DNA of 64,000 nucleotides from Synechococcus sp. JA-3-3Ab (lineage in GTDB: Bacteria > Cyanobacteriota > Cyanobacteriia > Thermostichales > Thermostichaceae): the NCBI RefSeq assembly GCF_000013205.1, contig NC_007775.1, positions 682,001 to 746,000 on the forward strand, read 5' to 3'. Every line of letters begins with the position of its first letter. The stretch's first letter is position 1. Positions 49,379-63,385 of this stretch are shown here, in pieces. A program made the position numbers and the translations under genes. The notes beneath the pieces are model-generated. The model saw only the letters and a program-made list of their open reading frames with translations. It had not been told where the DNA came from and did not search any database.

Positions 49379-50560
49379 TTACGCTGAACACTGCTGAGCA
49401 TTACTGCTCAGCGGTGAAGCGATAGCATTCTGTCCGTTTCCGTTGTCACTACGCGATGCTGACGCGACCGCGCTACTCGGACGGAGTCCAAACAGAAAGG
49501 CGGTATCCCGCAAAGCCCTGAGCATAACACCCAGAGCGCCTTGCCAATCTCGTGGTAGCCTATGGTTGCACTTTGGGCATCTAAACACCTTTGCACCACC
49601 CAACTTGGTGTGGATGTGCCCGCACTTAGTACAGGTTTTGCTGGTGTACGCTTCCGATACTTCCACGACAACCACGTTTTTCTTCTTGGCTTGAAACTTC
49701 AGGAACTGCTTGAACCGATAGTGCGCCCAGGTGAGCATCGCCCTTGCTGTCTTGCTACCAAACTTCCTCCCTGCCTTGGCAACCATCTTGGCTGACTCGA
49801 AAGTGGGGAGGAATATCAATCGGTAGTTATCCGTTAGGAACGCCGCTACCTTGCGATGGCACTCGTCCACCAAGTTCCTGATTCTCTCCCGCAGACGAAA
49901 CGCCGCTTGCCGCATTCGCCTACGCTTGGGTCTCGGTGCTTTACTCAGCCTAGATTGCAGATCGTCTAGGTGGTAGCACAGCCGAACGATCCTGCCAAAG
50001 TCTCCCTTGGCGATATCTACAAAGCCCGCCCCATCAAACCCTGTAAGGAAGCTTCTTACTCCAGGATCAAGTGCGATCACCCCCTTTGCTAACGAACACT
50101 GCTCGTTCACGGGCTCAGGGAAGATGGCATACCATCTGTCTTTCACCCGCATTAGCTCAGTTCCACGTGCCCATTCTCTGGGCATCTCCTCGGATGCACG
50201 GAACGCCAAACCTCGGGTGAGTTTCGGATACCACGTCCCATTGCGAAAGTTGCCGGCGTTGAATTGCAGCGTATGCGACCTGTCCCGCACACTGCGAAAC
50301 CTCGCGTCTTTGCTTCGGCGAAACGCCAACCACGCCTCGACGACCGCGTTCTGCTTGATGTGGCAGGGGGCGTCCTTCACCCACCCGGGCAGGTCGGAGC
50401 GCAGGATGATGTCCCGCAGCTTTCTGGCCGTTCTTGGAGCACCATGCTGGCGCTGATAGGCAATCGCTTGGTTGTAGCAGTACCGGCACGCCGCTTGCCA
50501 CCGCTTCCAAACTTTAGCCAGCGCTGGCTCCGGATAAATCCGTATCTTTCTCGATTGCAG
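49379..50560 (-). CDS. tnpB: TnpB of IS607-type element
   Basis: About 390 residues. RKIRIYPEPALAKVWKRWQA starts the N-terminal domain; GVIALDPGVRSFLTGFDGAG holds the first RuvC Asp, VVVVEVSEAYTSKTCTKCG the Glu region and first Zn pair, and FRCPKCNHRLPRDWQGAL the second Zn pair and last Asp. The start is unresolved: the frame stays open far into tnpA, no ATG or GTG lies at the expected place, and a CTG at 50560 is only a guess. The C-terminus (SSAVASASRSDNGNG) covers a dispersed-repeat-like DNA string, so it may be altered. Confidence 0.82.
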   Translation of the reverse strand: MQSRKIRIYPEPALAKVWKRWQAACRYCYNQAIAYQRQHGAPRTARKLRDIILRSDLPGWVKDAPCHIKQNAVVEAWLAFRRSKDARFRSVRDRSHTLQFNAGNFRNGTWYPKLTRGLAFRASEEMPREWARGTELMRVKDRWYAIFPEPVNEQCSLAKGVIALDPGVRSFLTGFDGAGFVDIAKGDFGRIVRLCYHLDDLQSRLSKAPRPKRRRMRQAAFRLRERIRNLVDECHRKVAAFLTDNYRLIFLPTFESAKMVAKAGRKFGSKTARAMLTWAHYRFKQFLKFQAKKKNVVVVEVSEAYTSKTCTKCGHIHTKLGGAKVFRCPKCNHRLPRDWQGALGVMLRALRDTAFLFGLRPSSAVASASRSDNGNGQNAIASPLSSNAQQCSA

Positions 50561-51107
50561 CCCGGTATTTTCTGAGTCCGTAGAGCCGACTGCTGAAGCA
50601 GTGCAGGATGGTGAGGATATCCTCAACCAGTTCCTGTTGGGGAGAAAGGTGATCGTCATCGAGAACCAAGATTTCGCACCCGTATTGACGGCAGTACCAC
50701 TCAACGAACTCAAATCCAAACCGGCAGAGTCGATCCCGGTGAGCGACCACAATTGTTCCGACATCTCCCGCACGAACTCGTTCCAATAAGGCAAGGAACT
50801 TTGGTCTTTTGAAGTCGAGACTGCTGCCAATCTCTCCGACCACCTCGGCTCCAGGGTAGAGGTTAACCAGTCTTGCAATCTGTCTTTCCAAGTCTGGTTT
50901 CTGCCCTCGACTGCTAACTCGGGCGTACAAAACGACTCGTTTGTCCTTCTTGGGTGCTCTGATGTAGCTGTCGAGGTCATACCTTCTCGCCCTACCGGAT
51001 GGTGTACGTACTGCATGGATCCAGCCTTTCTGTTCCCATCGCCTCAAGGTGTGGAGACACACCCCAAAATAATCCGCCGCTTCTCTCGGTTTTACATACC
51101 TAGCCAT
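50514..51107 (-). CDS. tnpA: IS607-family serine recombinase TnpA
   Basis: 197 residues. A MerR-like DNA-binding domain comes first (VKPREAADYFGVCLHTLRRW, EQKGWIHAVRTPSGRARRYD), then the resolvase domain VVLYARVSSRGQKPDLERQI with the catalytic Ser, FLALLERVRAGDVGTIVVAH and DRLCRFGFEFVEWYC. This reversed order of HTH and catalytic domains is the mark of IS607 transposases. The enzyme should move this element and its short derivatives. Frame intact. Confidence 0.92.
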   Translation of the reverse strand: MARYVKPREAADYFGVCLHTLRRWEQKGWIHAVRTPSGRARRYDLDSYIRAPKKDKRVVLYARVSSRGQKPDLERQIARLVNLYPGAEVVGEIGSSLDFKRPKFLALLERVRAGDVGTIVVAHRDRLCRFGFEFVEWYCRQYGCEILVLDDDHLSPQQELVEDILTILHCFSSRLYGLRKYRAAIEKDTDLSGASAG

Positions 51108-51181: not shown

Positions 51182-51709
51182 TCCACAGATGTGGGGACAA
51201 CGTACAGCAGGAGAACTACCAGGGGGCTCATAGATTGGTTCACCCCCACGGGTGTGGGGACAACGGACGGATCCCTTGCCGGGTCAGGGCCCTCCCTTCG
51301 GTTCACCCCCACGGGTGTGGGGACAACTGAAGTCCTGCCGTCCCGCGGGCCGGGCCGACTTCGGTTCACCCCCACGGGTGTGGGGACAACGTACGCTCCC
51401 ACGATCTCCAAGCCTGCCGCCTTCGCGGTTCACCCCCACGGGTGTGGGGACAACTCCAGTGCCACCGCTATTGCGGGGACTAGCCAGGTCGGTTCACCCC
51501 CACGGGTGTGGGGACAACGACTCTTTGTCCGTCACTCCAACGTAGAGGATTACGGTTCACCCCCACGGGTGTGGGGACAACGCTATTCGGTGGGCTTCCC
51601 GCTCAAGTTGTGCTTCCGGTTCACCCCCACGGGTGTGGGGACAACCCGGTGAACTCCCGCAGCTTGGGCGCCCACTTGTTCGGTTCACCCCCACGGGTGT
51701 GGGGACAAC
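51182..51709 (-). CRISPR. Type I-E CRISPR array, 8 full repeats plus one damaged
   Basis: The 28-base core GGTTCACCCCCACGGG-TGTGGGGACAAC, usually preceded by C (29 bases in all), begins at 51237, 51300, 51363, 51427, 51491, 51554, 51618 and 51682. A ninth, damaged repeat (TCCACAGATGTGGGGACAAC) ends at 51201. Spacers between cores are 35-36 bases. On the minus strand the repeat ends GTGAACCG, resembling the 8-base 5' handle of I-E crRNAs (ATAAACCG in E. coli), so transcription should run from the cas2 side leftwards. The damaged repeat would then be the leader-distal one. Only 19 bases separate the first repeat from the cas2 stop. Confidence 0.97.
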
Positions 51710-51728
51710 CCTTCCATTTTTGCCGATT

Positions 51729-52001
51729 TTAGTAGGTTTTGACCAGCAGCACCCCTTCTATGTCTACTAGCTGCCGCGAGGGATCCCCGATGCTCCTGGC
51801 CGAGAATCCCTGCTCTGAGTTGGTGGAATAGACCATCAGTGCAGAGCCGTCGCCGATTTTGCTGGTCACCCGTGCCCACAGTTCTTCTCGAACCAGGGCT
51901 GAGACGCGACCGACAAAGACCCCCGCCTTGATCTCAAACAGCCAGCGACTTAGGTCTCCTCTCAAACTTGCGGGGACATTCTCTAAGATAAAGACCACCA
52001 T
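51729..52001 (-). CDS. cas2: Cas2e
   Basis: 90 residues. MVVFILENVPASLRGDLSRW, EIKAGVFVGRVSALVREELW and MVYSTNSEQGFSARS follow the type I-E Cas2 pattern. With Cas1 it forms the spacer-integration complex. Its ATG overlaps the cas1 stop by one base. The stop lies 19 bases from the first CRISPR repeat. Confidence 0.95.
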   Translation of the reverse strand: MVVFILENVPASLRGDLSRWLFEIKAGVFVGRVSALVREELWARVTSKIGDGSALMVYSTNSEQGFSARSIGDPSRQLVDIEGVLLVKTY

Positions 52002-52948
52002 CAGACCGACATTTCCTCATCCAACTCTTCTCCGTAGCTCACTCCCCCCTCAACAGCTCCCTTCTCGTTATCCCAAAGAGATCCTACAGGGCTTGACTCC
52101 TCCTGTGTGGCTCTGAAGCCGAGGATGGCATCAACATCGTCTATGATTCTCTGCATCAACCGATGCTCTACAAACTTTTCTCGACACAGTTGCCTAGTTC
52201 TCGACTCAAAGTTTGGCATCAACTCAGCGGCAGCCTTGAAGGCAACAGGGATGGTGATCTCTGTCTTGTAGAGATCGGCAACGTCATAAACAAAAGATAA
52301 GGGCTTGCCGATGTGAATAAACCCCAACGCAGTTGAATAGCCTACGGCATTGAGCGCTGCCTGGCAAACAGCGTAGAGGCAAGTATTGGCAACAGAAAGA
52401 GCACGATTAACGGGATCAGCACACTCCCATTCCTTGAGCTTGTAGGAGCGTCCCTTCCAATTTACCCCTGTTTCTTTACTAAGGCGGCTGTAAACAGTTC
52501 GCACTCGCACCCCCTCCAGTCCGCGAATCTGCTCAAGGGTTAGCCCTTCTTTGAGAGGTTCGGGAAAGCGAAATGAATACATACGCCGAACCACTTCCAT
52601 GTGCTGGACGGGATCTGCCCATAGTTTGGCCTGGTGATAAAGCCTTTCCACGCTGCTGGAAGGATGGGATCCACTGGCATAGAAGCGTAGCCCATCTTCG
52701 CCAACCCACTGGACCGAGCAGAGCCCATCGGCCAAGTTCTTGATGGCAGCGTGAGTAATTGCTGTCCCAGGGCCTAGCATTAAAGTGGTCAAGCTGGCAC
52801 AAGGGATTATATATCTGCCATCTTCTTGCAAAACGGCAATAGCTTTCGCATCTTGCTCAATTCGGCACCGTTCTACATAGACAAAGCTTATGCTATCTCG
52901 AACCTTCGGGATAGATCGTAAACTTTTCGTAGTTGTCTTTGCGATCAT
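52001..52948 (-). CDS. cas1: Cas1e integrase
   Basis: 315 residues from ATG 52948, behind GGGAGTG. ISFVYVERCRIEQDAKAIAV, LMLGPGTAITHAAIKNLADG and GFIHIGKPLSFVYDVADLYK (active-site His and Asp) match Cas1e. It integrates new spacers as a Cas1-Cas2 complex. An in-frame extension to 53020 overlaps cas6e and is not needed. Confidence 0.95.
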   Translation of the reverse strand: MIAKTTTKSLRSIPKVRDSISFVYVERCRIEQDAKAIAVLQEDGRYIIPCASLTTLMLGPGTAITHAAIKNLADGLCSVQWVGEDGLRFYASGSHPSSSVERLYHQAKLWADPVQHMEVVRRMYSFRFPEPLKEGLTLEQIRGLEGVRVRTVYSRLSKETGVNWKGRSYKLKEWECADPVNRALSVANTCLYAVCQAALNAVGYSTALGFIHIGKPLSFVYDVADLYKTEITIPVAFKAAAELMPNFESRTRQLCREKFVEHRLMQRIIDDVDAILGFRATQEESSPVGSLWDNEKGAVEGGVSYGEELDEEMSV

Positions 52949-52974
52949 AAGACACTCCCCCTTAAAAGGCAAAA

Positions 52975-53607
52975 CTAGCGTGGAAAGTAACTGATCTTGC
53001 TGAGCGATAGAAGTCCACATCCGTAGGAGCGTCCTCGCCCAATTCCTTGTTGTACTGCTTTAACAAAAGCTTCAGAATCAGTTACCCGCAATATGCCCTG
53101 GAACAAAACGGTGTGGATACGAACTGGCCCGGAGAGCCCCTTTTTGATCCCAAATATTTGCGGCGATGGGATCCCTTCTGCAGCCAACACCTCAAACCCA
53201 TGCTGAAAGCCCTGGCGGCGGAGCCATTCCAGTTGATCCTCAGAGCGAAAAAAGCCAACAATCTTGCGGGTCTTCTTATCTCGCTTGCTGGGATTTGCTC
53301 GGAGTCGGAACTGAAAGCATCTTCCCTTACTTAGAACTTCTGGCCTCAGGTCGAAGATTTTGACTTCTGGATCCCTTTGGACATAACCCTGTGGCAAGCG
53401 AGACCAATCCGGCTGAATGACCGATTGCACCAGGATGGTGCAGCCATCAGGTTCTTGACGGTAAAGAATATGCCAATCGGAGCGAGGGGTTTTGGTAGGT
53501 TGATCGGGAAAACCATGCATAATTCGCTGGTGCAAAGCGTGAGCATTACTGAGCTCTCGCTGCACCAGAAGCTGTCGCTCGTTTAGAATTAGCCGGGAAA
53601 GATACAT
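52975..53607 (-). CDS. cas6e: Cas6e crRNA endonuclease (CasE)
   Basis: 210 residues. LSRLILNERQLLVQRELSNA, ALHQRIMHGFPDQP with the catalytic His region, and GIGRGRSYGCGLLSLSKI, the Gly-rich loop at the C-terminus, match CasE. It cleaves precursor crRNA within each repeat and stays in Cascade. It overlaps cas5e by 19 bp. Confidence 0.95.
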   Translation of the reverse strand: MYLSRLILNERQLLVQRELSNAHALHQRIMHGFPDQPTKTPRSDWHILYRQEPDGCTILVQSVIQPDWSRLPQGYVQRDPEVKIFDLRPEVLSKGRCFQFRLRANPSKRDKKTRKIVGFFRSEDQLEWLRRQGFQHGFEVLAAEGIPSPQIFGIKKGLSGPVRIHTVLFQGILRVTDSEAFVKAVQQGIGRGRSYGCGLLSLSKISYFPR

Positions 53608-54212
53608 ATCGCCTCCGGGAGTTCATGGTATTCCGTCTCCACAGCCCGGCAACCGAAGCGCCGCGGCTGCCAGCTCAAAGGCACATCTTGGCGCACATCC
53701 AGACTCTCAGAGACCTCCAAAACAAAGCGGAGTTGGGAGGGACGCTTCCCGCGTCTAGAACACTCATAAGGGTGCTGACGCAAAGCTTCCAGCAAAGGCT
53801 GCTCCACAAGCCCCACTCGCAAAGGGCGGCTGGGAATAAAGCTTTTCCGTCCCAGAAACACTTGCCAGTAAGGTTTTTGCAGAGCTTGATCCAAAGTTCT
53901 CAGCAAATTAGGATCCCCTTCCAATCCCACCAGGTAATCCCCATCTGCTACGTAGTAGCGATTGCTGATCGTCTCTTTTATTTGTACTGTGTGGAAATCC
54001 TTACAAAGGATCCCTTCCTTGTTTACTCGCACCCCCATTTTCAGGGCAGCCAGATCATCAACAGGTTCCCAGCGAGGGCGACCCAGTGCCGCACAGAGGA
54101 TCCCGATCACCGCCGACTTTGTAGGCTCACGACGGCTATCGCGATAATCAAACTGGCTGTGGTCGCCCCAGCTCATCATCGGAGCCCGCAATCGCATGAG
54201 AAGCGTAGTCAT
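53589..54212 (-). CDS. cas5e: Cas5e (CasD)
   Basis: 207 residues. TLLMRLRAPMMSWGDHSQFD, RDSRREPTKSAVIGILCAAL and FHTVQIKETISNRYYVADGD are Cas5e signatures, followed by PFLGRKSF-like sequence and a beta-rich C-terminus. It binds the crRNA 5' handle in Cascade. It lies 3 bp after cas7e. Confidence 0.95.
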   Translation of the reverse strand: MTTLLMRLRAPMMSWGDHSQFDYRDSRREPTKSAVIGILCAALGRPRWEPVDDLAALKMGVRVNKEGILCKDFHTVQIKETISNRYYVADGDYLVGLEGDPNLLRTLDQALQKPYWQVFLGRKSFIPSRPLRVGLVEQPLLEALRQHPYECSRRGKRPSQLRFVLEVSESLDVRQDVPLSWQPRRFGCRAVETEYHELPEAICIFPG

Positions 54213-54215
54213 GAT

Positions 54216-55358
54216 CTAAGCTCCTTGGCCGTTGCTGGCCACGCCAAAGGCTTTGAGAGCACTTTTTAAGAGCTCTTCTACAGAATCTTTCTTGCTAGAC
54301 TTGAGTACATTGAGTCTCGCAGCCAGCCTATCAAGGACAACAACGCCTTTATACTGCACGTCAGCTTCTCCATACATCTTGACCAGTGATCCCCAATACT
54401 CATCTAAAGCTTTAACGGCATTTTCCAGTAGGCTAAATCCTCCACTGGGAGCAACCGGATTTTCAAAGGCATCCACTAAGGAAATAGGCTGCCCTTCCCG
54501 AACTACTGCCATCACCAATGCTGGCCGAGTGTGAGCGGCAAATCCGTTTTGATGTCCACTGGGCACAGCATGAATGAAAGCCGTAGCAAAAGCCTTGATG
54601 ATGGATCCTAGATGTTCAGTTCCGCCTAGGTTTTCAACCAACTGTTTCTTGTCGAGAACAGCAAAGCGGTAGTATGTAGAGCTGTTGTACCCCGTCTCGC
54701 CCATGTGATCGGCTCCGGTGTCCTCACTACTGCCCAGGTCGTCTACGGCTGTAAAGAAGTCGAACTCTTGTTGTAGGGCATTGATACTAATTGCATGGGC
54801 TACCTGAACAGCAGCATCGACATTGACTGTGGGTAGCGAGGCCATCATCCGACCAAACAAAGCTACATCACCGGGTTTTCCTGTATCAACCAAAGCTTTT
54901 TCGATCGCCTTGGCTATTTTTTGGGGAAGTTTGGGCTTTTCCTCTCGCAATCCGGATTCAATGGCAGACCAGTTTTTGATTAAGATTTCGGCAATTGCAT
55001 CAAGTTCCGTCTTCCCCAAAAATACAATGGTGGTGGCTTCATTTTTATCATTAAACTTGAGCTTAAGCCCTTGCTCTAAGGCAAGCCGAGCGGCCATTCC
55101 AGCTTGCTCATCAGGGATCCCTGCCTTCACAAGCTTAGATTTCAACTCAGGGAGCCAGTTGCGAGAGCGAGCGGCAAAGTGAGCCGGGTCTAGCTCAGCA
55201 TATTGGTGATAGTATTTTCGCACTGCCCGCTTCTGGCACTGGCTAGAGATTCGCGCTCGTGGACGACCGCCGAATATCGTAGATTTAGGCATGCCATTTT
55301 CATCGCGGTTTAGGTTGGCAGGAGGGAAACTTTGAATCAAATGAATTTCCAGTCGCAT
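54216..55358 (-). CDS. cas7e: Cas7e (CasC), Cascade backbone
   Basis: 380 residues from ATG 55358, behind AGAGGAG. RLEIHLIQSFPPANLNRDEN, STIFGGRPRARISSQCQKRA and DLGSSEDTGADHMGETGYNS are typical of CasC, which forms the six-subunit filament along the crRNA. The longer frame to 55394 lies upstream of the ribosome site. Confidence 0.95.
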   Translation of the reverse strand: MRLEIHLIQSFPPANLNRDENGMPKSTIFGGRPRARISSQCQKRAVRKYYHQYAELDPAHFAARSRNWLPELKSKLVKAGIPDEQAGMAARLALEQGLKLKFNDKNEATTIVFLGKTELDAIAEILIKNWSAIESGLREEKPKLPQKIAKAIEKALVDTGKPGDVALFGRMMASLPTVNVDAAVQVAHAISINALQQEFDFFTAVDDLGSSEDTGADHMGETGYNSSTYYRFAVLDKKQLVENLGGTEHLGSIIKAFATAFIHAVPSGHQNGFAAHTRPALVMAVVREGQPISLVDAFENPVAPSGGFSLLENAVKALDEYWGSLVKMYGEADVQYKGVVVLDRLAARLNVLKSSKKDSVEELLKSALKAFGVASNGQGA

Positions 55359-55424
55359 GGCTGTTTCTCCTCTAAGGGTATAGTGTCGGAACAAGTTTGT
55401 TAGCTCAAACAGGGGTAAGTGCTC

Positions 55425-56024
55425 TCAGCCTACATCCTCTCTGAGATCATCGGAAACCTCAGAACTTACATCATCAGTTTCTTCTGCCTTTGCAGATCCA
55501 GAGGAAGATACCTGCCAAAAAGTTTTAGCCCATCTATCCTGGACAACTTGATCGGGATGGTTCCATAAGCAAAGGTCAGCAATCAACTGAGGGTAGTAAA
55601 CAGAAATTTTTCTATCCTTCTTACTTTTCATTTGCTTTACCAAAGCTATGATTGGATATTCGGTGTAGTCAAGATCGGTCTCTAGAAGAGCTCTAAACCT
55701 TCGTTCTGGGCCTTTAGATTCGGTGCTGTCTTGCAATTCCCGACAGCTTTTCGCAAAGTTACTGACCTCTGGTTCCATATCTTGGTCATGGTAAACGGAG
55801 AGACACGCCACAAAGATCCAAATATCCTGTTCTTGTTCGGGGATCCCTTGTAAATAGGGCAGTACAAAGGGGTAAATTTTTCGTAAGTGGTGGTGCTCGC
55901 CGGAAAGTGCTCGCTTGAAGGCAGCTTTGGCGCCGGTGTCGTTTTTGAGGCGATCCTTGATTTCTTGTAAGAACTTTTTTGCCCGTTCCAGTCGATTATG
56001 GGAAGAGATTTGAGTTGTAGACAT
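55425..56024 (-). CDS. cse2: Cse2 (CasB, Cas11) small subunit
   Basis: 199 residues, helical. AKFKRALSGEHHHLRKIYPF-like sequence (AAFKRALSGEHHHLRKIYP), PEQEQDIWIFVACLSVYHDQ and RRFRALLETDLDYTEYPIIA are CasB features. It is a dimer in Cascade that stabilises the displaced strand. The acidic C-terminal tail (EETDDVSSEVSDDLREDVG) is longer than usual. Confidence 0.92.
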   Translation of the reverse strand: MSTTQISSHNRLERAKKFLQEIKDRLKNDTGAKAAFKRALSGEHHHLRKIYPFVLPYLQGIPEQEQDIWIFVACLSVYHDQDMEPEVSNFAKSCRELQDSTESKGPERRFRALLETDLDYTEYPIIALVKQMKSKKDRKISVYYPQLIADLCLWNHPDQVVQDRWAKTFWQVSSSGSAKAEETDDVSSEVSDDLREDVG

Positions 56025-56035
56025 AACTTGGCCTC

Positions 56036-57610
56036 CTATTGGACAACAGCTTGCTCCTTCTTCTGCTTTTTCTTAGCTGCTTTTTGTTTTTGAGCTTTCT
56101 TTTCCCTTGGATCCGCACGAAGCTCTGCTAGTTTTCTCTCCAGCGTGCGCAAGGCAGCCGCTCTGGCCTGATAGTTGCGAATAGACTCAATGGACTCGGT
56201 GAAGGCTCGCCGAGCGGCATCTTGCACAGTCTTAGTCCAGGCAGGTAGAGTGGTAAGTCCATAGTAGATAATTCCATCAGCTCCAGGTTGGTTATCTTGG
56301 GGTAAATCATGAAGTAGCATTGAGAAAGCGTGGTCTAGAATTGCCCAGTAGCGAGACTCTCCGTCTAAAGCTTTGGATAGCTTCTCAGTCTCTCCGTTTT
56401 TAAGAACCTCTGCTAGAGAAAAGTAGGGGCTACCTTTAGAAGATCGAAAGATTTGTTGATGGTTCTCGGCAATTCCAATAGCGCTTTTTAAACTCTGCGC
56501 CAACTCCGAATCTGTAACAAACTGCATTGGAACTGAAAATCGAGCCGAGCTCCATCCTAAAGGTTTAGCCTGGTCGGCGCTCATACCCAACACTTCAAAC
56601 ACAACCAAATTATTGACCAATTCTTCTGACTTGAGCTCAGCTAGCCAGTCCACAATCCGAGGACGGGTTTGCTTGCTAGCCGTCAGGAGAAAGCTGTCCG
56701 CATCCCGCCACAACTGTCTGTGTAAAGATAGACGCACTGGTTTATCTTCTTTATAGGCAACGCTACATTCCCACTGCCGGGCCTCTACACCGTTGGGTAG
56801 GGAGTTGCCCATAGTAATAGCCAATTGCTGCACTCGCCCAGCTTCTGAAAACAGCCGCAGCCGCCGCCAGGGAAAGGTTAAATAGTGGATGTATCCCGCA
56901 GGGATCTCTTTTTTCGGTTGGCCAGTGTAGCCAACTTTGGTTTCCCAGGTGGGTACATCTTCTCCAGCTACTACACTGGGCATCTCATCCTCTGGGCTAT
57001 ACCGCATCAAGTTCAGCATCAGCGTCTCTTTTAAGGTTCTCCCTTTCAAAAGGACATTGGCAACATTCATAGTCGGAGTGTTTACAGCAGAGTGATTGCC
57101 GCTGTCTTGCCCAACATAAAATGCCCTTAGGCTAGTGATGTCAACTCCCTGTAGACGCACCAATAGTCGAGCAGCTTCCGGTAAGGAGATGCTGTAGCCG
57201 CTCCATTCGTGTTCATGAAAGAATACTTCAGAGGTGCTCATGGTATGGATGGAGTGGACAGGCACAGCTTTTTCTATAGGTAGAGCTGGATCCTGCATGA
57301 AGGGGTGAGTGGGATGGAATAGGTCAAAACAATCTTGCCTATCCTGCAAGTACTTAATAACTCGCTTTCCATTGTCTTGAAAGATTTCCTTCCAGTGATC
57401 CGTATCTTTTGGTCCAAGATAGGCTCGGTGCATTATTGCCAGTAGAAAACGGTAGAGAGCTAAAGTAGTAGGCGGATTATCTCCTCGCATCTCTTTCAGG
57501 CTTTCCCACTCTCTAAATAACTCAACTAAAGACAACTCTTGGATTCGAAAATCGGGATCGAGTACAGGGATCCACTTTTCTTTGGTGAGATTAAAGGACT
57601 GAGTTTCCAT
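56036..57610 (-). CDS. cas8e: Cse1 (CasA, Cas8e) large subunit
   Basis: 524 residues. FNLTKEKWIPVLDPDFRIQE, LYRFLLAIMHRAYLGPKD and FLLTASKQTRPRIVDWLAEL agree with Cse1, which recognises the PAM and recruits Cas3. The C-terminal 30 residues are Lys/Gln-rich (REKKAQKQKAAKKKQKKEQA), perhaps aiding DNA binding. It lies 16 bp after cas3. Confidence 0.93.
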   Translation of the reverse strand: METQSFNLTKEKWIPVLDPDFRIQELSLVELFREWESLKEMRGDNPPTTLALYRFLLAIMHRAYLGPKDTDHWKEIFQDNGKRVIKYLQDRQDCFDLFHPTHPFMQDPALPIEKAVPVHSIHTMSTSEVFFHEHEWSGYSISLPEAARLLVRLQGVDITSLRAFYVGQDSGNHSAVNTPTMNVANVLLKGRTLKETLMLNLMRYSPEDEMPSVVAGEDVPTWETKVGYTGQPKKEIPAGYIHYLTFPWRRLRLFSEAGRVQQLAITMGNSLPNGVEARQWECSVAYKEDKPVRLSLHRQLWRDADSFLLTASKQTRPRIVDWLAELKSEELVNNLVVFEVLGMSADQAKPLGWSSARFSVPMQFVTDSELAQSLKSAIGIAENHQQIFRSSKGSPYFSLAEVLKNGETEKLSKALDGESRYWAILDHAFSMLLHDLPQDNQPGADGIIYYGLTTLPAWTKTVQDAARRAFTESIESIRNYQARAAALRTLERKLAELRADPREKKAQKQKAAKKKQKKEQAVVQ

Positions 57611-57626: not shown

Positions 57627-60308
57627 TTAGCTGTTCATCTTCTCGATGGTGATCCCTAGGTTAGGATCCAACCGCAGTCGCCATTTGCCAACTTGAGCCC
57701 AGCCTTCGGCGTTCAAGACAACGTAGCGACAGTTACGCAGCAAAGCAGATGTCCAAGTTTTGGGGTTTTCCCGCCTCAGCAGCTCCTTTACAAGCTCCTG
57801 GCGGGAAGCAATGCGAACACTGTGGGCCAGTAGCCTACGAATCATCGGCAGGCTGGGCTCAGTTTCTAGATCCACTGGATCGTGAGAGCCGGGAAAGACT
57901 AAACCGGTCTTCCCTTGTTGCAAGAAAATTGTCGCCACCGAAGGCTGCCCAAGTCTGGTAACGGCAGCGATAGTGCTTTCGTCATCCTCTTTTTTTAGGT
58001 AGGTAAACTGTTCGGGCCTCACATCAGCATTTGGCGGTGGGATCTTTACTTCATTAGCTCGAGATCTTTTAGCATCCTCTTCTTCAACTTTGTACTTTTC
58101 CAAAGACTCTCGCCAATCTTGAGCATGAACGGTTTCCAATGCTTCGGGGATAGGCATCTCCAAGTCATATACCGATTCGATTAGGTCGTCGATTTCTTCA
58201 GGCAGTTGCACGTTGCAACGCTCTCTTAGAGCCAGCCAACTGCGTAGGAGAATGTGCCGATCGTAGATAGAGCTGCTCTCCCGAAAATTAGCCTTGCCCT
58301 CCTCGGCTAGCTCTGGTTCCACTATCCACAAGTAGGGAGCAGATAGCTCAGGTGGTCGCTTGTCCCGCGGATGGCGGTGGAGCCGCCCAGAGCGCTGTAG
58401 GAGAAGATCAATGGGAGCGGGATCGCTGATCATTAAGTCAAAATCCACATCCAAGCTTTGCTCAATGACCTGGGTTGCCACCAAAACAAAACGAGAGGGA
58501 CGGAGATGTCCATTTTTGCCGAATCTCTCCAGGCATTGCTTCTCAATCTGCTCTCGATCTTTGAATAAAAAGCGCCCGTGAAACAGGCCCAATTCTTCCG
58601 GCGGAAAATACTTCTGGAGATGCTGAAACACCCACTGGGCGCGATCTACCGTTGAGCAGATAACAGCAACGCACCCGCCCCCTTTGGAAAGCACTTGCGA
58701 GAGTTCTGCGGGCCACTGGTCATCCCTGACCCAGCGGATCCCCAATTGACGGCGCACATGCTCGGAAGGAGCAAAAGACTGAGCTAGGGCCGCTCCAGAA
58801 GCTAGGGCTGTGATGCGAGGGTAAGGGGCATTAGGTGAGTCGGGCGGGGGCTGTCCACAGCCTCTGGCATAGGCAGCCAGCAATCGTTGGCGGGTACCGG
58901 CGGGCAAGGTGGCCGAGAGGGCGATCACGGGGGATCCCAAAACGGCTGCCCACTCCAAAAATCGCTCCAGGAGAGTGCTGGTGTAGAGGTCGTAGGCGTG
59001 GATCTCGTCCAGGATGATGATGCGGCCTGCCAGACCAAACAGGCGGACAAACTGGTGGCGGGCCCGTACTGCTCCCATCAGAGCCTGATCAGGGGTGCCC
59101 ACCCCGTAAGGGCTGAGCAGCGTCCGCTTGCGGGCAGTGTGCCACTCGCTGGCAAAAACGCCTTTGCCCTCCTGGTCATAAACCTGATCCAGGCGACAGA
59201 CGGTGTCCAGGTAATCTTCTTTGAGAGCTGCTGCCCCATGGCTGAGGGTTAGGTTTACGATGGCATCGGGATAGCGCTTTTGCAAAAATGACTTGACGCG
59301 CTCGAACATGGCGTTGCTGGTTGCCTGGGTAGGCAGGCCGATGTAAAAGCCACCGGCTCCGGCTTGATGCTGCAGGTGGTCGGCCAGGTAGAGCGCAGCT
59401 TCGGTTTTGCCCTCTCCCATGGCGGCCTCGACAATGACCAAGCAGGGTGGAGCCAGCCTGTCCTTCAGGTTAATGGCTGCCAATTGCAGCGGTCGCGGCT
59501 CGCTGATGAAGTCAAAGAGAGCCTGAAAAGTAAGAGGGCTGTCTGTGGGGGGCGCAATCCAACCCTGGGCTTTCAGGGCTTGTTGGGCCTTTTCGGCTAT
59601 TCCTTGAGCGTAGGTCTCGAAGGGCTCGTCGTTGGCGTAGGGAAAACTCTCCGTATTCGAGGCAATCCAGTCGGCAACGGTTGCCAGGCCGGCCAAGATC
59701 ATGGCGGCGGAATTGCTGCAGCGGCCAGGGATCCCCTCCCTCTTCAGCCCAACAAAATCTTGTAGTTGCTGGAAGATCTCTCGACGAAATGGGATCCACT
59801 CCCCTCGACCGACATCGTCGGGGGAGAGACTTTGAATATCCTGAAGTCCCGGGAAAAAGCCATGATGACCGCCGACAATAGCTGACAATTTTTGGGCCAG
59901 TTTCTTGGGCAGCCCCAGCTCTTCCAGAAAGCCGGGCAAGGTTGCGGCGGTAACCGTTCCATGAGGGGCTGCTTGGCCAGTGTTGGGATAGCTGCGCCAC
60001 AGGCCGTAGAGACGGGATCCCACCAGCGCTTTTCCCACCTCGCTCACTTGAAATTGAAAGGCAGGACTGACTTTGCCTAGGTCGTGACACCCTGCCATGA
60101 ACCCGCAAAAGCGAGCTAAGGGATCCCCTTCCAGCCCCAATCCTACTGAGAGCTGCTGACGAGCAAGGGGGCTAAGGTAGGTTTGCACGATCTCCATGGC
60201 CACAGCTGCCGTATCGGCTAGGTGGCAGAGGACGGGATGGTACAGAGGTCGGCCATCTTCTCGCAACTGTCCCTGTCCGGTCTTGGCCCAAAATCGGGAC
60301 TTGCTCAT
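57627..60308 (-). CDS. cas3: Cas3 helicase-nuclease
   Basis: 893 residues. The HD nuclease lies at the N-terminus (LYHPVLCHLADTAAV, FMAGCHDLGKVSPAFQ at about 71-86). The SF2 helicase follows with IVEAAMGEGKTEAALYLADH (Walker A), RIIILDEIHAYDLYTSTLLE (DEIH), ALSATLPAGTRQRLL and VIEQSLDVDFDLMISDPAPI plus LLQRSGRLHRHPRD (motif VI). It shreds DNA bound by Cascade. All catalytic motifs are present. It starts two bases after the WYL regulator stop, so the two are one transcript in the ancestral arrangement. Confidence 0.96.
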   Translation of the reverse strand: MSKSRFWAKTGQGQLREDGRPLYHPVLCHLADTAAVAMEIVQTYLSPLARQQLSVGLGLEGDPLARFCGFMAGCHDLGKVSPAFQFQVSEVGKALVGSRLYGLWRSYPNTGQAAPHGTVTAATLPGFLEELGLPKKLAQKLSAIVGGHHGFFPGLQDIQSLSPDDVGRGEWIPFRREIFQQLQDFVGLKREGIPGRCSNSAAMILAGLATVADWIASNTESFPYANDEPFETYAQGIAEKAQQALKAQGWIAPPTDSPLTFQALFDFISEPRPLQLAAINLKDRLAPPCLVIVEAAMGEGKTEAALYLADHLQHQAGAGGFYIGLPTQATSNAMFERVKSFLQKRYPDAIVNLTLSHGAAALKEDYLDTVCRLDQVYDQEGKGVFASEWHTARKRTLLSPYGVGTPDQALMGAVRARHQFVRLFGLAGRIIILDEIHAYDLYTSTLLERFLEWAAVLGSPVIALSATLPAGTRQRLLAAYARGCGQPPPDSPNAPYPRITALASGAALAQSFAPSEHVRRQLGIRWVRDDQWPAELSQVLSKGGGCVAVICSTVDRAQWVFQHLQKYFPPEELGLFHGRFLFKDREQIEKQCLERFGKNGHLRPSRFVLVATQVIEQSLDVDFDLMISDPAPIDLLLQRSGRLHRHPRDKRPPELSAPYLWIVEPELAEEGKANFRESSSIYDRHILLRSWLALRERCNVQLPEEIDDLIESVYDLEMPIPEALETVHAQDWRESLEKYKVEEEDAKRSRANEVKIPPPNADVRPEQFTYLKKEDDESTIAAVTRLGQPSVATIFLQQGKTGLVFPGSHDPVDLETEPSLPMIRRLLAHSVRIASRQELVKELLRRENPKTWTSALLRNCRYVVLNAEGWAQVGKWRLRLDPNLGITIEKMNS

Positions 60309-60310
60309 CG

Positions 60311-61194
60311 CTAGGGCTCCTCGTCAACGTACTGCCGGCTCATCTCGCAGATCTCTTGCCGCATCATGTCCACCAAATCCGGAGGCTCCAGCACTCTGGC
60401 TCCTCTGCCGTAGCCCAGCACCCAGCGCTTTACATCATTCATCCCCCGCACGGTTATGCGCAGAATCAGGGATCCGTCTGGGTTTTCTTCAATGACCTGG
60501 GTCGGATGCCAGCGCCGCTCCCGAATGAAGGGTGCCGTTTGGGCGTCAAACCAAATTCTTACCTGGCGAGGGATCCCGCCCGCCTCATGCTGAAAAATCA
60601 TCGCCAGATGGGCTTTGGGATCGAAAGTCGGGTCGATCTCAAAAGTTTCCGGCAGGGTTTTGAGAGCCAGGATCCGATCTACCCGGAACCAGCGCACTTC
60701 TTGTCTTTTGTGGCACCAGCCAATCACGTAGGGATTGGTGCCGCGGTAGATGTGCAAGAGATAGGGATCCAACTCCCGTTCCGACACTTGATCGCCTCGG
60801 CTGGCGGTGCGATAGCGCATCCACACTCGTCTTTTCTCCCGACAGGCATCCTCCAACCGCTGCCAAATCTCCCAATCCAGATGGGTTTCTGCCCCTGCCC
60901 GAAAGATGAGCCGCTCATCGGCTAGCTGCTGGAGATCCAGCCACTCCTGCTCTGGAAGCCGTTGCGCCAACCGCCCAATTGCCGAGCGCAACTGCGGGGC
61001 ATAGGCCGATCCGGCGTAGGCTTCCAGCATTCTCGCTCCCAAAGTCAGGGCAAACAGCTCCCCCTTAGTGAGGGGTATCGTCGGCAAGCGCCATTCCCGA
61101 TCAGTGTAGTGATACCCTTTTTCACGGCTGACTTTGATGGGGGCTTGAAAGCGATCCTTCAAGAAACTAATATCCGCTCGAACCGTTCGTTCAC
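60311..61194 (-). pseudogene. WYL-family regulator, 3' part, split by tnpB element D
   Basis: 294 codons of a wHTH-WYL transcription regulator. GERTVRADISFLKDRFQAPI is the end of the winged helix; EKRRVWMRYRTASRGDQVSE, YLLHIYRGTNPYVIGWCHKR and EVRWFRVDRILALKTLPETF belong to the WYL ligand-sensing domain, followed by a WCX-type C-terminus. The first 32 codons and one base lie beyond the element, at 63125-63221. An ATG at 61222 inside the element's left end keeps this part open in frame, giving a 303-aa product lacking the first helices of the HTH. As first gene of the cas operon it was probably its regulator. Confidence 0.92.
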
Positions 61195-61291
61195 CTATTT
61201 TCGGGCTGGAGGCCCGCACCATAGCCGCAGGCTTGGTGCCGGGAGGAAAGCCCGCCTGCTAGTCAAAGCCTGGATGAGCTACAATAAGCCC

Positions 61292-63103
61292 ATGAGCCAG
61301 ATTATCTCTGTACGTTGCAAGCTGATAGTCCCACAAGAGTTGCGTCAAGAAATTGACCGCACTTTGCAGGGCTTTGCGAATGCTTGCAACCAGATTCTCG
61401 ACACCGCCAAACAAAAGAACTGCTGGAACACCGCCAAGCTGCACCACTTGGTCTATCGGCCGGTAAGGGCAGCAACGGGGCTGAAAGCCAACCACGTCTG
61501 TCAGGCGCTCCGCCGTGTGATTAGCAACGCCAAGGCGGTGAAGCAAGTCCACAAGTTTCGCCCCACCAGTCTGACTTTGGACGCTCGTACTTTTAAGTAC
61601 CGAGAGTCCAACCAAGCCGTGGGCGTGACCCTGATGAGCGGACGGGTTTGGCTCAAGCTCAAGATTGGCGGTTATCAAATCGCTTTGCTGCGGGGGCAAA
61701 CACCCACCAGTGCTACTCTGTCCAAGACTAAGCAAGGGGAGTACTACATCAACATTGCGGTTGAGTTGGATACTCCCCCGACTGGCAAAACTCCAAAGGT
61801 AATCGGAGTTGACTTGGGCAGGCGGGATATCGCCACCGCTAGCAACGGACGCTCTTGGAGTGGAGAACACATCCAGGCCGTCCGTGACCGGTTCAGCCGT
61901 GTACGCGCCAAGGTTCAATCCAAACGCACTCGCAGCTCTAGGAGGCTGTTGAGAAGGCTCTCTGGGAGAGAACGGCGCTACGCCGCTTGATAATACAAAT
62001 GGTAAAATTTTAATACCAACATTATTAAACCTGTAATGAGTAGTAAAAAGAGGTTTTCTCAGGAAGAAGACAACATTCTTAGGCAGAAATACGCATCGGC
62101 TACTAAAGCCGAGTTGATGTCTCTTCTCCCTGAAAGGAAGTCTTGGGAATCGATCCGAATGAGAGCTTTTAAGCTGGGACTCAAGAGAAGTAAAGAAGCT
62201 CGTTCCTATGAGATGGGTAAACCGTTGGAAGGTAACTTTACGGATCATCTTACCGAGGCTGAAAAAGGATATATCGCTGGTTTGATAGACGGTGAAGGTT
62301 CTATAACGCTTTCTCGAAGGGTTAGTGGTAGGGTTAATCCTGTGTATTCTATTCATATATCTATTTGCAATACAAGCCCCAAGCTTATTGAATGGCTGAA
62401 CGGGAAGTTTCCGGGAAAAGCATACACTTATCCCCGCAACAAAAGCAGGCTGGGTAGCAAGCCGGTTTATGCTTGGGTCGTCGCAGGAAATAGACAGTGT
62501 ATCCAGTTCCTCAAAGAAATAGTGAATTACCTTGTTATAAAACGCCCGCAAGCTGAACTCCTCATAGGAGGGTACGTGCATTTGGAACCAAAGGAAAGGG
62601 AAGAACTTTGGATGAAACTTAAACAACTCAAAAAAGAACTTTAACGGCTGAACCATAACATCAGCAAAACCTTGGTCAGGGATGCCCAGGCTATTGGTGC
62701 GGCACTGGCTTTTGAGGACTTGACAGACATCCGAGAGCGCTTGAATCAGAAACCTCGGAGTAAAGCTGAGCGCCGCAGAACCAATAACTGGGCGTTCTAC
62801 CAACTCAGGATGTTTGTGACCTACAAGGCTGCCATTGCTGGAGTGCCTGTGGTGCTGGTGCCGCCTGCCTACACGTCGCAGACCTGCCACAAATGCCTGC
62901 ACATCCACCCTGAGCAGGGTAAGTCCTACCGCAGCGGCAAGTTGTTCAAGTGTGGACACTGCGGGTGGGAAGGGGATGCTGACTATAACGCTGCTCAAGT
63001 AATCTCTCTCCTTGGGGCGACTGTAAACTCGCCTGAAATTCCGAAACTTAGCTGTCCTCTGGGTCAGCTAGGGATTGGGATAAAGCCCGCACCCTGCGCA
63101 TAG
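61292..63103 (+). pseudogene. tnpB: tnpB copy D, interrupted by a 657-bp insert
   Basis: The first part (MSQIISVRCKLIVPQELRQE to SGRERRYAA, with VIGVDLGRRDIATAS) ends in TGA at 61988-61990. The second part resumes at about 62646: WLNHNISKTLVRDAQAIGAA, FEDLTDIRERLNQ, and zinc and RuvC motifs TSQTCHKCLHIHP, FKCGHCGWEGDADYNAA. Removing 657 bases (61989-62645 or 61990-62646) fuses GCT-T to GG-CTG and gives R-Y-A-A-W-L-N-H, aligning with R-F-Q-A-W-V-N-H in copy C. All catalytic residues are present across the two parts. It is more divergent than copies A-C. Whether it is spliced, works in two pieces or is dead is unknown. Confidence 0.88.
62036..62644 (+). CDS. LAGLIDADG homing endonuclease with N-terminal HTH
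   Basis: 202 residues. Residues 6-55 (RFSQEEDNILRQKYASATKA, WESIRMRAFKLGLKRSKEAR) form a Myb/SANT-like helix-turn-helix. One LAGLIDADG motif follows at about 80-88 (YIAGLIDGEGSITLSRR), so the enzyme would act as a homodimer of the I-CreI kind. KLIEWLNGKFPGKAYTYPRN and IVNYLVIKRPQAELLIGGYV fit the rest of the fold. The DNA is clearly richer in A+T than its surroundings, with a different codon bias, pointing to transfer. It fills nearly all of the 657-bp insert in tnpB copy D. Confidence 0.93.
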   Translation: MSSKKRFSQEEDNILRQKYASATKAELMSLLPERKSWESIRMRAFKLGLKRSKEARSYEMGKPLEGNFTDHLTEAEKGYIAGLIDGEGSITLSRRVSGRVNPVYSIHISICNTSPKLIEWLNGKFPGKAYTYPRNKSRLGSKPVYAWVVAGNRQCIQFLKEIVNYLVIKRPQAELLIGGYVHLEPKEREELWMKLKQLKKEL

Positions 63104-63124
63104 CGCGGGTGTCGGGTAGTTTAC

Positions 63125-63221
63125 TTACCTCCAAAGCCTCAGCCAGCGAAGCGGCTGTCTTTCGCTGTCCGGAGCGCAGCAGCATATCTAGCTTCAGGAT
63201 CCGCTCTATCTGACGTAGCAT
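63125..63221 (-). pseudogene. WYL-family regulator, 5' part
   Basis: From ATG 63221: MLRQIERILKLDMLLRSGQR, then KTAASLAEALEV and the first base of a Ser codon. These are the first helices of the winged HTH of a WYL regulator. Joined to 61194 the gene reads E-V-S-E-R-T-V-R-A-D and totals 327 codons including the stop, the usual size. The native promoter would lie right of 63221. Confidence 0.9.
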
Positions 63222-63385
63222 TGCTTACCTTGGCCAGGATGAGCGCATTCTAAACAACTCACCTGGCAAAAATACTTCCGACTTCTCTAAAGATTTGCTG
63301 AAGGCTGAAACTTCTTGGGGACGGGGATCAGCATGAACCCCAATTGGACAGGCTAGACAGAGCGGAGAGCGACCTCTGAGGCTGC

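Follow-up and report, generated by a model that had tools for sequence, protein, structure and literature searches.

Insertion of a tnpB-only IS200/IS605-type element into the WYL regulator gene heading a type I-E cas operon in Synechococcus sp. JA-3-3Ab: most likely the recent loss of a cas autoregulator through natural knockout

Results

The cas operon and the CRISPR array

The genome of the hot-spring cyanobacterium Synechococcus sp. JA-3-3Ab consists of 2,932,766 bases in one contig, and the stretch of 64,000 nucleotides that was analysed (hereafter the window, to which all coordinates refer unless another locus is named) corresponds to its positions 682001-746000. We report that the window carries a minus-strand operon with the order WYL regulator gene, cas3, cse1, cse2, cas7, cas5, cas6, cas1 and cas2, followed by a CRISPR array. 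Specifically, cas3 (57627-60308, minus strand) begins 2 nt downstream of the WYL stop codon and has its own GAGGAG ribosome site, cas8e/cse1, cse2, cas7e, cas5e, cas6e, cas1 and cas2 occupy positions 51729-57610 on the same strand with all frames open, and the array (51183-51722) has nine repeat copies with a spacing of 63-64 nt. Matches to TIGR02547, TIGR01869, TIGR01868 and TIGR01907 and to the Cas3 and Cse2 models, together with the array, assign the system to type I-E; cas1 and cas2 were named by position and relatives (cas1 by matches in relatives), not by profile search. The link between the WYL regulator and the cas operon made in the initial annotation agrees with this, and in six relatives, too, a WYL gene leads the type I-E cas genes. 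The WYL-cas3 junction in relatives is tight or overlapping (ATGA), and translational coupling may therefore have weakened here.

Two further observations concern operons of this kind and their surroundings. In another genome of the genus (G002; locus L059, 7420-11008) the WYL gene is read in two frames and cas3 in three, reflecting either long-read errors or a decaying operon. Moreover, the translations of the ORFs beside the array (49379-51107) read as a serine recombinase with a MerR-type HTH and a TnpB lookalike, and these ORFs look like an IS607-type element adjoining the array.

Insertion of element D into the WYL gene

The WYL gene is interrupted by a mobile element, element D (61195-63124, plus strand), a tnpB element of the IS200/IS605 type without tnpA, inserted 3' of TTCAC with no target duplication, and its insertion into this gene is certain. 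Joining the flanks (61194 to 63125) restores a 326-aa WYL ORF, which includes the N-terminal HTH and is collinear with the intact 328-aa protein of a relative (L003) except for the C-terminal tail. The limits of the element were fixed in two independent ways, i.e. by joining the flanks and by the ends of seven sister copies in a genome of the same genus (G004). The insertion point is codon 33 of the WYL gene, with a clean, footprint-free junction, and the severed 5' part (63125-63221, minus strand) comprises 32 codons plus 1 nt from the native ATG at 63221. Fusion of the native N-terminal fragment through the element was rejected, as the frame meets a stop codon at 63048, within the element, after 57 aa, and splicing of the WYL gene via a group I intron or another known RNA in the element was rejected as Rfam gave no match even at E 1. 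No second copy of the same WYL family is present in the genome, where the sole other WYL match is weak; the plasmid search gave two weak matches only.

The fixed left-end target (TCAC precedes all eight copies), the end hairpin and the lack of a target duplication are features of the IS200/IS605 type. The C-terminal RuvC/zinc-finger domain of TnpB was detected in the C-terminal piece (PF07282, E 3e-22), and one of the sister copies (L076) has an uninterrupted tnpB frame of 397 codons. A genome-wide search gave no Y1_Tnp match (the Y1 transposase TnpA) inside element D; tnpB-only elements are a known form. Element D is present as a single copy in its own genome, which has 19 Y1 transposase matches, and the genome with the sister copies has two.

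The tnpB gene of element D is split (61982-62645) by an insert of ~660 bp with a 202-aa LAGLIDADG-type ORF (62036-62644), for which Pfam LAGLIDADG_3 scored below the cut-off and I-MsoI was a weak PDB match (E 6e-5). The insert is absent from all seven sister tnpB copies and no intron RNA was detected in it using Rfam. If the TnpB guide corresponds to the right-end flank (63125 onward) and TCAC (61190-61194) to the adjacent motif, the intact WYL allele would be its target; the split in the tnpB of element D itself stands against such targeting.

The truncated regulator

Downstream of the junction a 303-aa ORF (60311-61222, minus strand) is open, whose codons 1-9 (MVRASSPKI) come from the element. 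Codon 10 combines one element base with GT of the target, and the remainder corresponds to WYL residues 34-326. The reading frame proposed from an ATG at 61222 through nine element codons into the WYL gene is thus present as described. The ORF keeps HTH helix 3, the wing and the WYL and WCX domains and has lost helices 1-2 of the winged HTH. Pfam HTH_11, which covers residues 12-61 of intact L003, is absent from the 303-aa ORF; the WYL (PF13280, E 9e-21) and WCX (PF25583, E 8e-22) domains were found in it and are both also present in L003. In the predicted structure of L003 (mean pLDDT 72, HTH 83-92) the helices span residues 2-16, 23-30 and 34-48 and the wing strands residues 52-55 and 59-62, and the cut at residue 33 separates helix 2 from helix 3. 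The truncated ORF was modelled with its first ten residues disordered, and the pLDDT of the helix 3 region drops from about 85-90 to 60-77 when helices 1-2 are missing, both models being of moderate quality. The Pfam search and the L003 model therefore agree with the earlier description, in which the first HTH helices were lost and the recognition helix region and the ligand domain kept. DNA binding is not expected from a winged HTH without helices 1-2, and the proposed loss of DNA-binding control is supported as the likely consequence of the beheading. It is more likely that the product of the 303-aa ORF is a beheaded, inactive regulator than a restarted protein.

The remnant has neither a stop codon nor a frameshift that would point to decay. 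Its dN/dS relative to L003 (NG86) is 0.05, the lowest among the operon genes measured, and the lineage-specific amino-acid changes number seven in the window remnant and six in L003. Neither measure showed relaxed selection on the remnant. The lack of decay and the low dN/dS mean that either the insertion is recent relative to the split from L003 or the remnant is still constrained or used.

The in-frame ATG in the element

The left end of element D (61195-61262, plus strand) forms a hairpin, and the complement of the ATG (61220-61222) lies within its stem. The predicted anti-SD energy is -1.5 kcal/mol for ATG 61222, compared with -3.9 for the native start, -6.5 for an internal ATG at 61030 and -7.9 for cas3 (all in kcal/mol), in line with the earlier remark that no good ribosome site precedes ATG 61222. 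The internal ATG (61028-61030, minus strand; codon 65 of the 303-aa ORF, with GGGAG upstream) would be a stronger predicted initiation site than 61222, and its product of 239 aa would be without any HTH.

Comparison with the sister copies provides some insight into how the ATG came to be in frame. The tip of the left end, CTATTTT, is 1 nt shorter than the CAAATTTT found in all seven sister copies, which also share the right-end base and the left-end start position, and the same short tip was found neither elsewhere in the genus nor in viral contigs. The shorter tip is what places ATG 61222 in the WYL frame. Translation of this ATG frame in six of the seven sister copies gives MVRASSPKIW and a stop at the junction, where a TGA is formed with the target complement GTGA; L081, the seventh copy, has a 1-nt deletion at the left end that shifts the frame. 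The element as such consequently does not donate a start codon. A start codon is present in one of the three phases that lead out of the element end, which gives a prior of about 1/3 for an in-frame start; hence such a start is not improbable and would be coincidental unless there was selection for the tip change. The initial claim that the element supplies a start codon accordingly holds for the reading frame but not for a working start, given the hairpin, the lack of a ribosome site and the stops in the sister frames. The in-frame ATG is probably coincidental, helped by the 1-nt shorter tip, and the predicted features of the site suggest that translation from it is probably little or none.

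A conserved dyad at the native promoter

Upstream of the native WYL start, a gapless block of ~40 nt common to 18 loci consists of an operator-like dyad (AAGTCGGAAGTATTTTTGCCAGGTG; 63260-63284, minus strand) followed by a conserved -10-like hexamer of the native promoter, TAGAAT (63247-63252, minus strand). The dyad, arranged around AAGTCGGAAG...TTTTTGCCGGGTG with its centre about 32 nt upstream of the inferred transcription start, lies over the -35 region beside the -10 and is conserved before this WYL family in 17 relatives, which include cas operons of types I-E and I-MYXAN. The block alignment omits the three distant WYL loci L072, L073 and L075, as they do not align there. Across the 18 loci the mean information per column is 1.0-1.35 bits in the block and 0.1-0.4 bits in the flanks. 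Complementary positions amount to 60% in the dyad register, 41% in the next best and 32% in the best unrelated register, and a formal pair count gave 73% in the dyad register and at most 54% when slid. Covariation in the dyad is modest to weak, with the observed values reached in 39-40 of 500 shuffles, so most of the dyad signal is conservation.

In each of four genomes of the genus, the motif occurs without mismatch once per genome and always at this operon; other matches in the genome have two mismatches and occur at about the rate of a reversed-pattern control or slightly above, giving no further operator sites. The I-MYXAN operons are also headed by the same WYL family and carry the motif. 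The conserved dyad at this operon and the shared WYL family at I-MYXAN operons provide good evidence that this family would act as an autoregulator of cas operons irrespective of their effector type. In the window alone, base 63264 breaks a C:G pair (columns 13 and 29) that is kept in all 17 relatives, and this single change is suggestive of lost constraint, nothing further.

The same WYL family (78% identity) and the same upstream dyad are also present at another locus (L004, 6513-9504), beside a umuC-like gene, with no cas gene recognised downstream within that contig.

Transcription signals within the element

One weak terminator-like site was predicted on the minus strand of the element, where the chance mean for the region is 3.5, and two promoter-like sites were predicted on both strands together compared with 1.4 expected by chance. 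The earlier suggestion that a promoter in the element drives the cas operon therefore finds no support, as these sites are not above chance. Rho is absent from the genome (best match 39 bits, cut-off 509), and untranslated antisense RNA should thus not cause Rho-dependent polarity. The absence of Rho and the lack of terminators above chance make read-through from the native promoter into cas3 plausible. A literature search found no transcript data for this operon.

Discussion

Our data suggest the following sequence of events. A tnpB-only IS200/IS605-type element hit codon 33 of what would be a WYL autoregulator heading a type I-E cas operon and, with helices 1-2 lost, the WYL protein would no longer bind its predicted operator, the dyad covering the -35 region of the promoter shared by WYL and the cas genes. 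The native promoter is untouched, and transcription from it probably still reads through the element into the cas genes; cas3 has a ribosome site of its own. The operon would then probably be freed from ligand-responsive control, with constitutive expression if the WYL protein is a repressor, which we favour, and low expression if it is an activator. The position of the dyad over the -35 region favours repression, and we regard derepression as the likelier outcome of loss of the WYL protein alone, with reduced expression less likely but well worth considering. Taken as a whole, i.e. a regulator knocked out by the element, a coincidental start, read-through into the cas genes and loss of ligand-responsive control, we consider this explanation likely, and a cas autoregulator has most likely been knocked out here by a recent natural insertion.

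Other explanations were weighed against this one. The insertion might be polar and silence the cas operon, in which case it would be an IS knockout of CRISPR immunity and not of the regulator. Inactivation of cas loci by IS elements has been documented (PMC10359306), cas3 is now separated from its promoter by 1.9 kb of antisense element, and the only recognisable promoter is the 40-nt conserved block; however, every cas frame is still open, and with no Rho and no excess of terminators we consider silencing unlikely. A promoter inside the element that drives both the remnant and the cas operon appears less likely again: one minus-strand sigma-70-like match (62019-61990, 9 of 12) lies in the A+T-rich insert, but the number of such sites is that given above, close to chance expectation.

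It is also conceivable, albeit rather improbable, that the 303-aa or the 239-aa product is translated and serves as a WYL-WCX ligand binder without proper DNA binding, e.g. a decoy or partner, with the tip change kept for that reason. The frame is open, the purifying signal is strong, the tip that brings the ATG in frame is shorter than that of every sister and the internal ATG at 61030 has a good ribosome site. Nevertheless, most of the divergence from L003 predates the insertion and the purifying signal does not necessarily apply to the truncated form, ATG 61222 is buried and lacks an SD, there is no second copy of the WYL family in the genome, and the 1-nt end deletion in L081 shows that such indels arise without a gene behind them. 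That the shortening of the tip was itself selected because it re-opened translation of the WYL-WCX remnant, and so converted a repressor into a ligand sink with a defective HTH or a leader for translational coupling to cas3, would be very unlikely. The smallest chance is given to a reversible switch in which a Y1 transposase acting in trans excises the element precisely, so that some cells of the population regain an intact WYL gene. The ends are of the IS200/IS605 type, the junction is footprint-free and the genome has Y1 transposases elsewhere, but the element is without tnpA, the genomic Y1 transposases might not act on these ends, and element D is a single copy with an altered left tip.

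If this explanation holds, the strain is a naturally occurring regulator knockout in a type I-E system with open effector genes, and the role of cas-associated WYL proteins in cyanobacteria becomes directly testable, with one promoter, one predicted site and both intact and broken forms of the regulator. Data on expression or immunity obtained with this strain may then not be representative of the regulated state.

Known WYL regulators both repress and activate: Sll7009 and BrxR are repressors, and PafBC and DriD activators (PMC4012209, PMC9122601, PMC6789036). Sll7009 of Synechocystis 6803, a reported negative regulator of a type I-D system (PMC4012209, PMC9122601), provides the Synechocystis precedent invoked in the initial annotation, albeit for a different subtype; likened by description, it is an HTH-WYL regulator tied to a cyanobacterial cas operon, whereas the system here is type I-E and its WYL gene is interrupted. 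BrxR, a repressor of BREX with HTH-WYL(-C-terminal) architecture, binds an inverted repeat close to the promoter of its own gene (PMC9122601), and PDB 7t8k was one of the profile matches. In Acinetobacter, an early stop codon in brxR left restriction and expression largely unchanged (PMC9122589), which calls for caution in assuming a strong effect of WYL loss here. The best PDB sequence matches include PafC and a DeoR-family WYL regulator. PafC and DriD share the HTH-WYL-WCX architecture but activate DNA damage genes, and a repressor function can therefore not be assumed. Transposon interruption of CRISPR-Cas loci has been described for cas genes (PMC10359306), and the main text of that report mentions neither a regulator, WYL nor IS200/IS605. 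A 'Type III / Ecoli subtype' CRISPR locus of Syn OS-A, described as flanked by transposons (PMC2612747), is very probably this very locus; a text search of that paper for a regulator gave no match, and the passages found in it do not mention the interruption of the WYL gene. Knockouts by IS elements in CRISPR loci are already known (PMC10359306) and the present case is not new in kind; the addition made here is a predicted operator, one pair of which is broken by a single base in the strain that lost the regulator.
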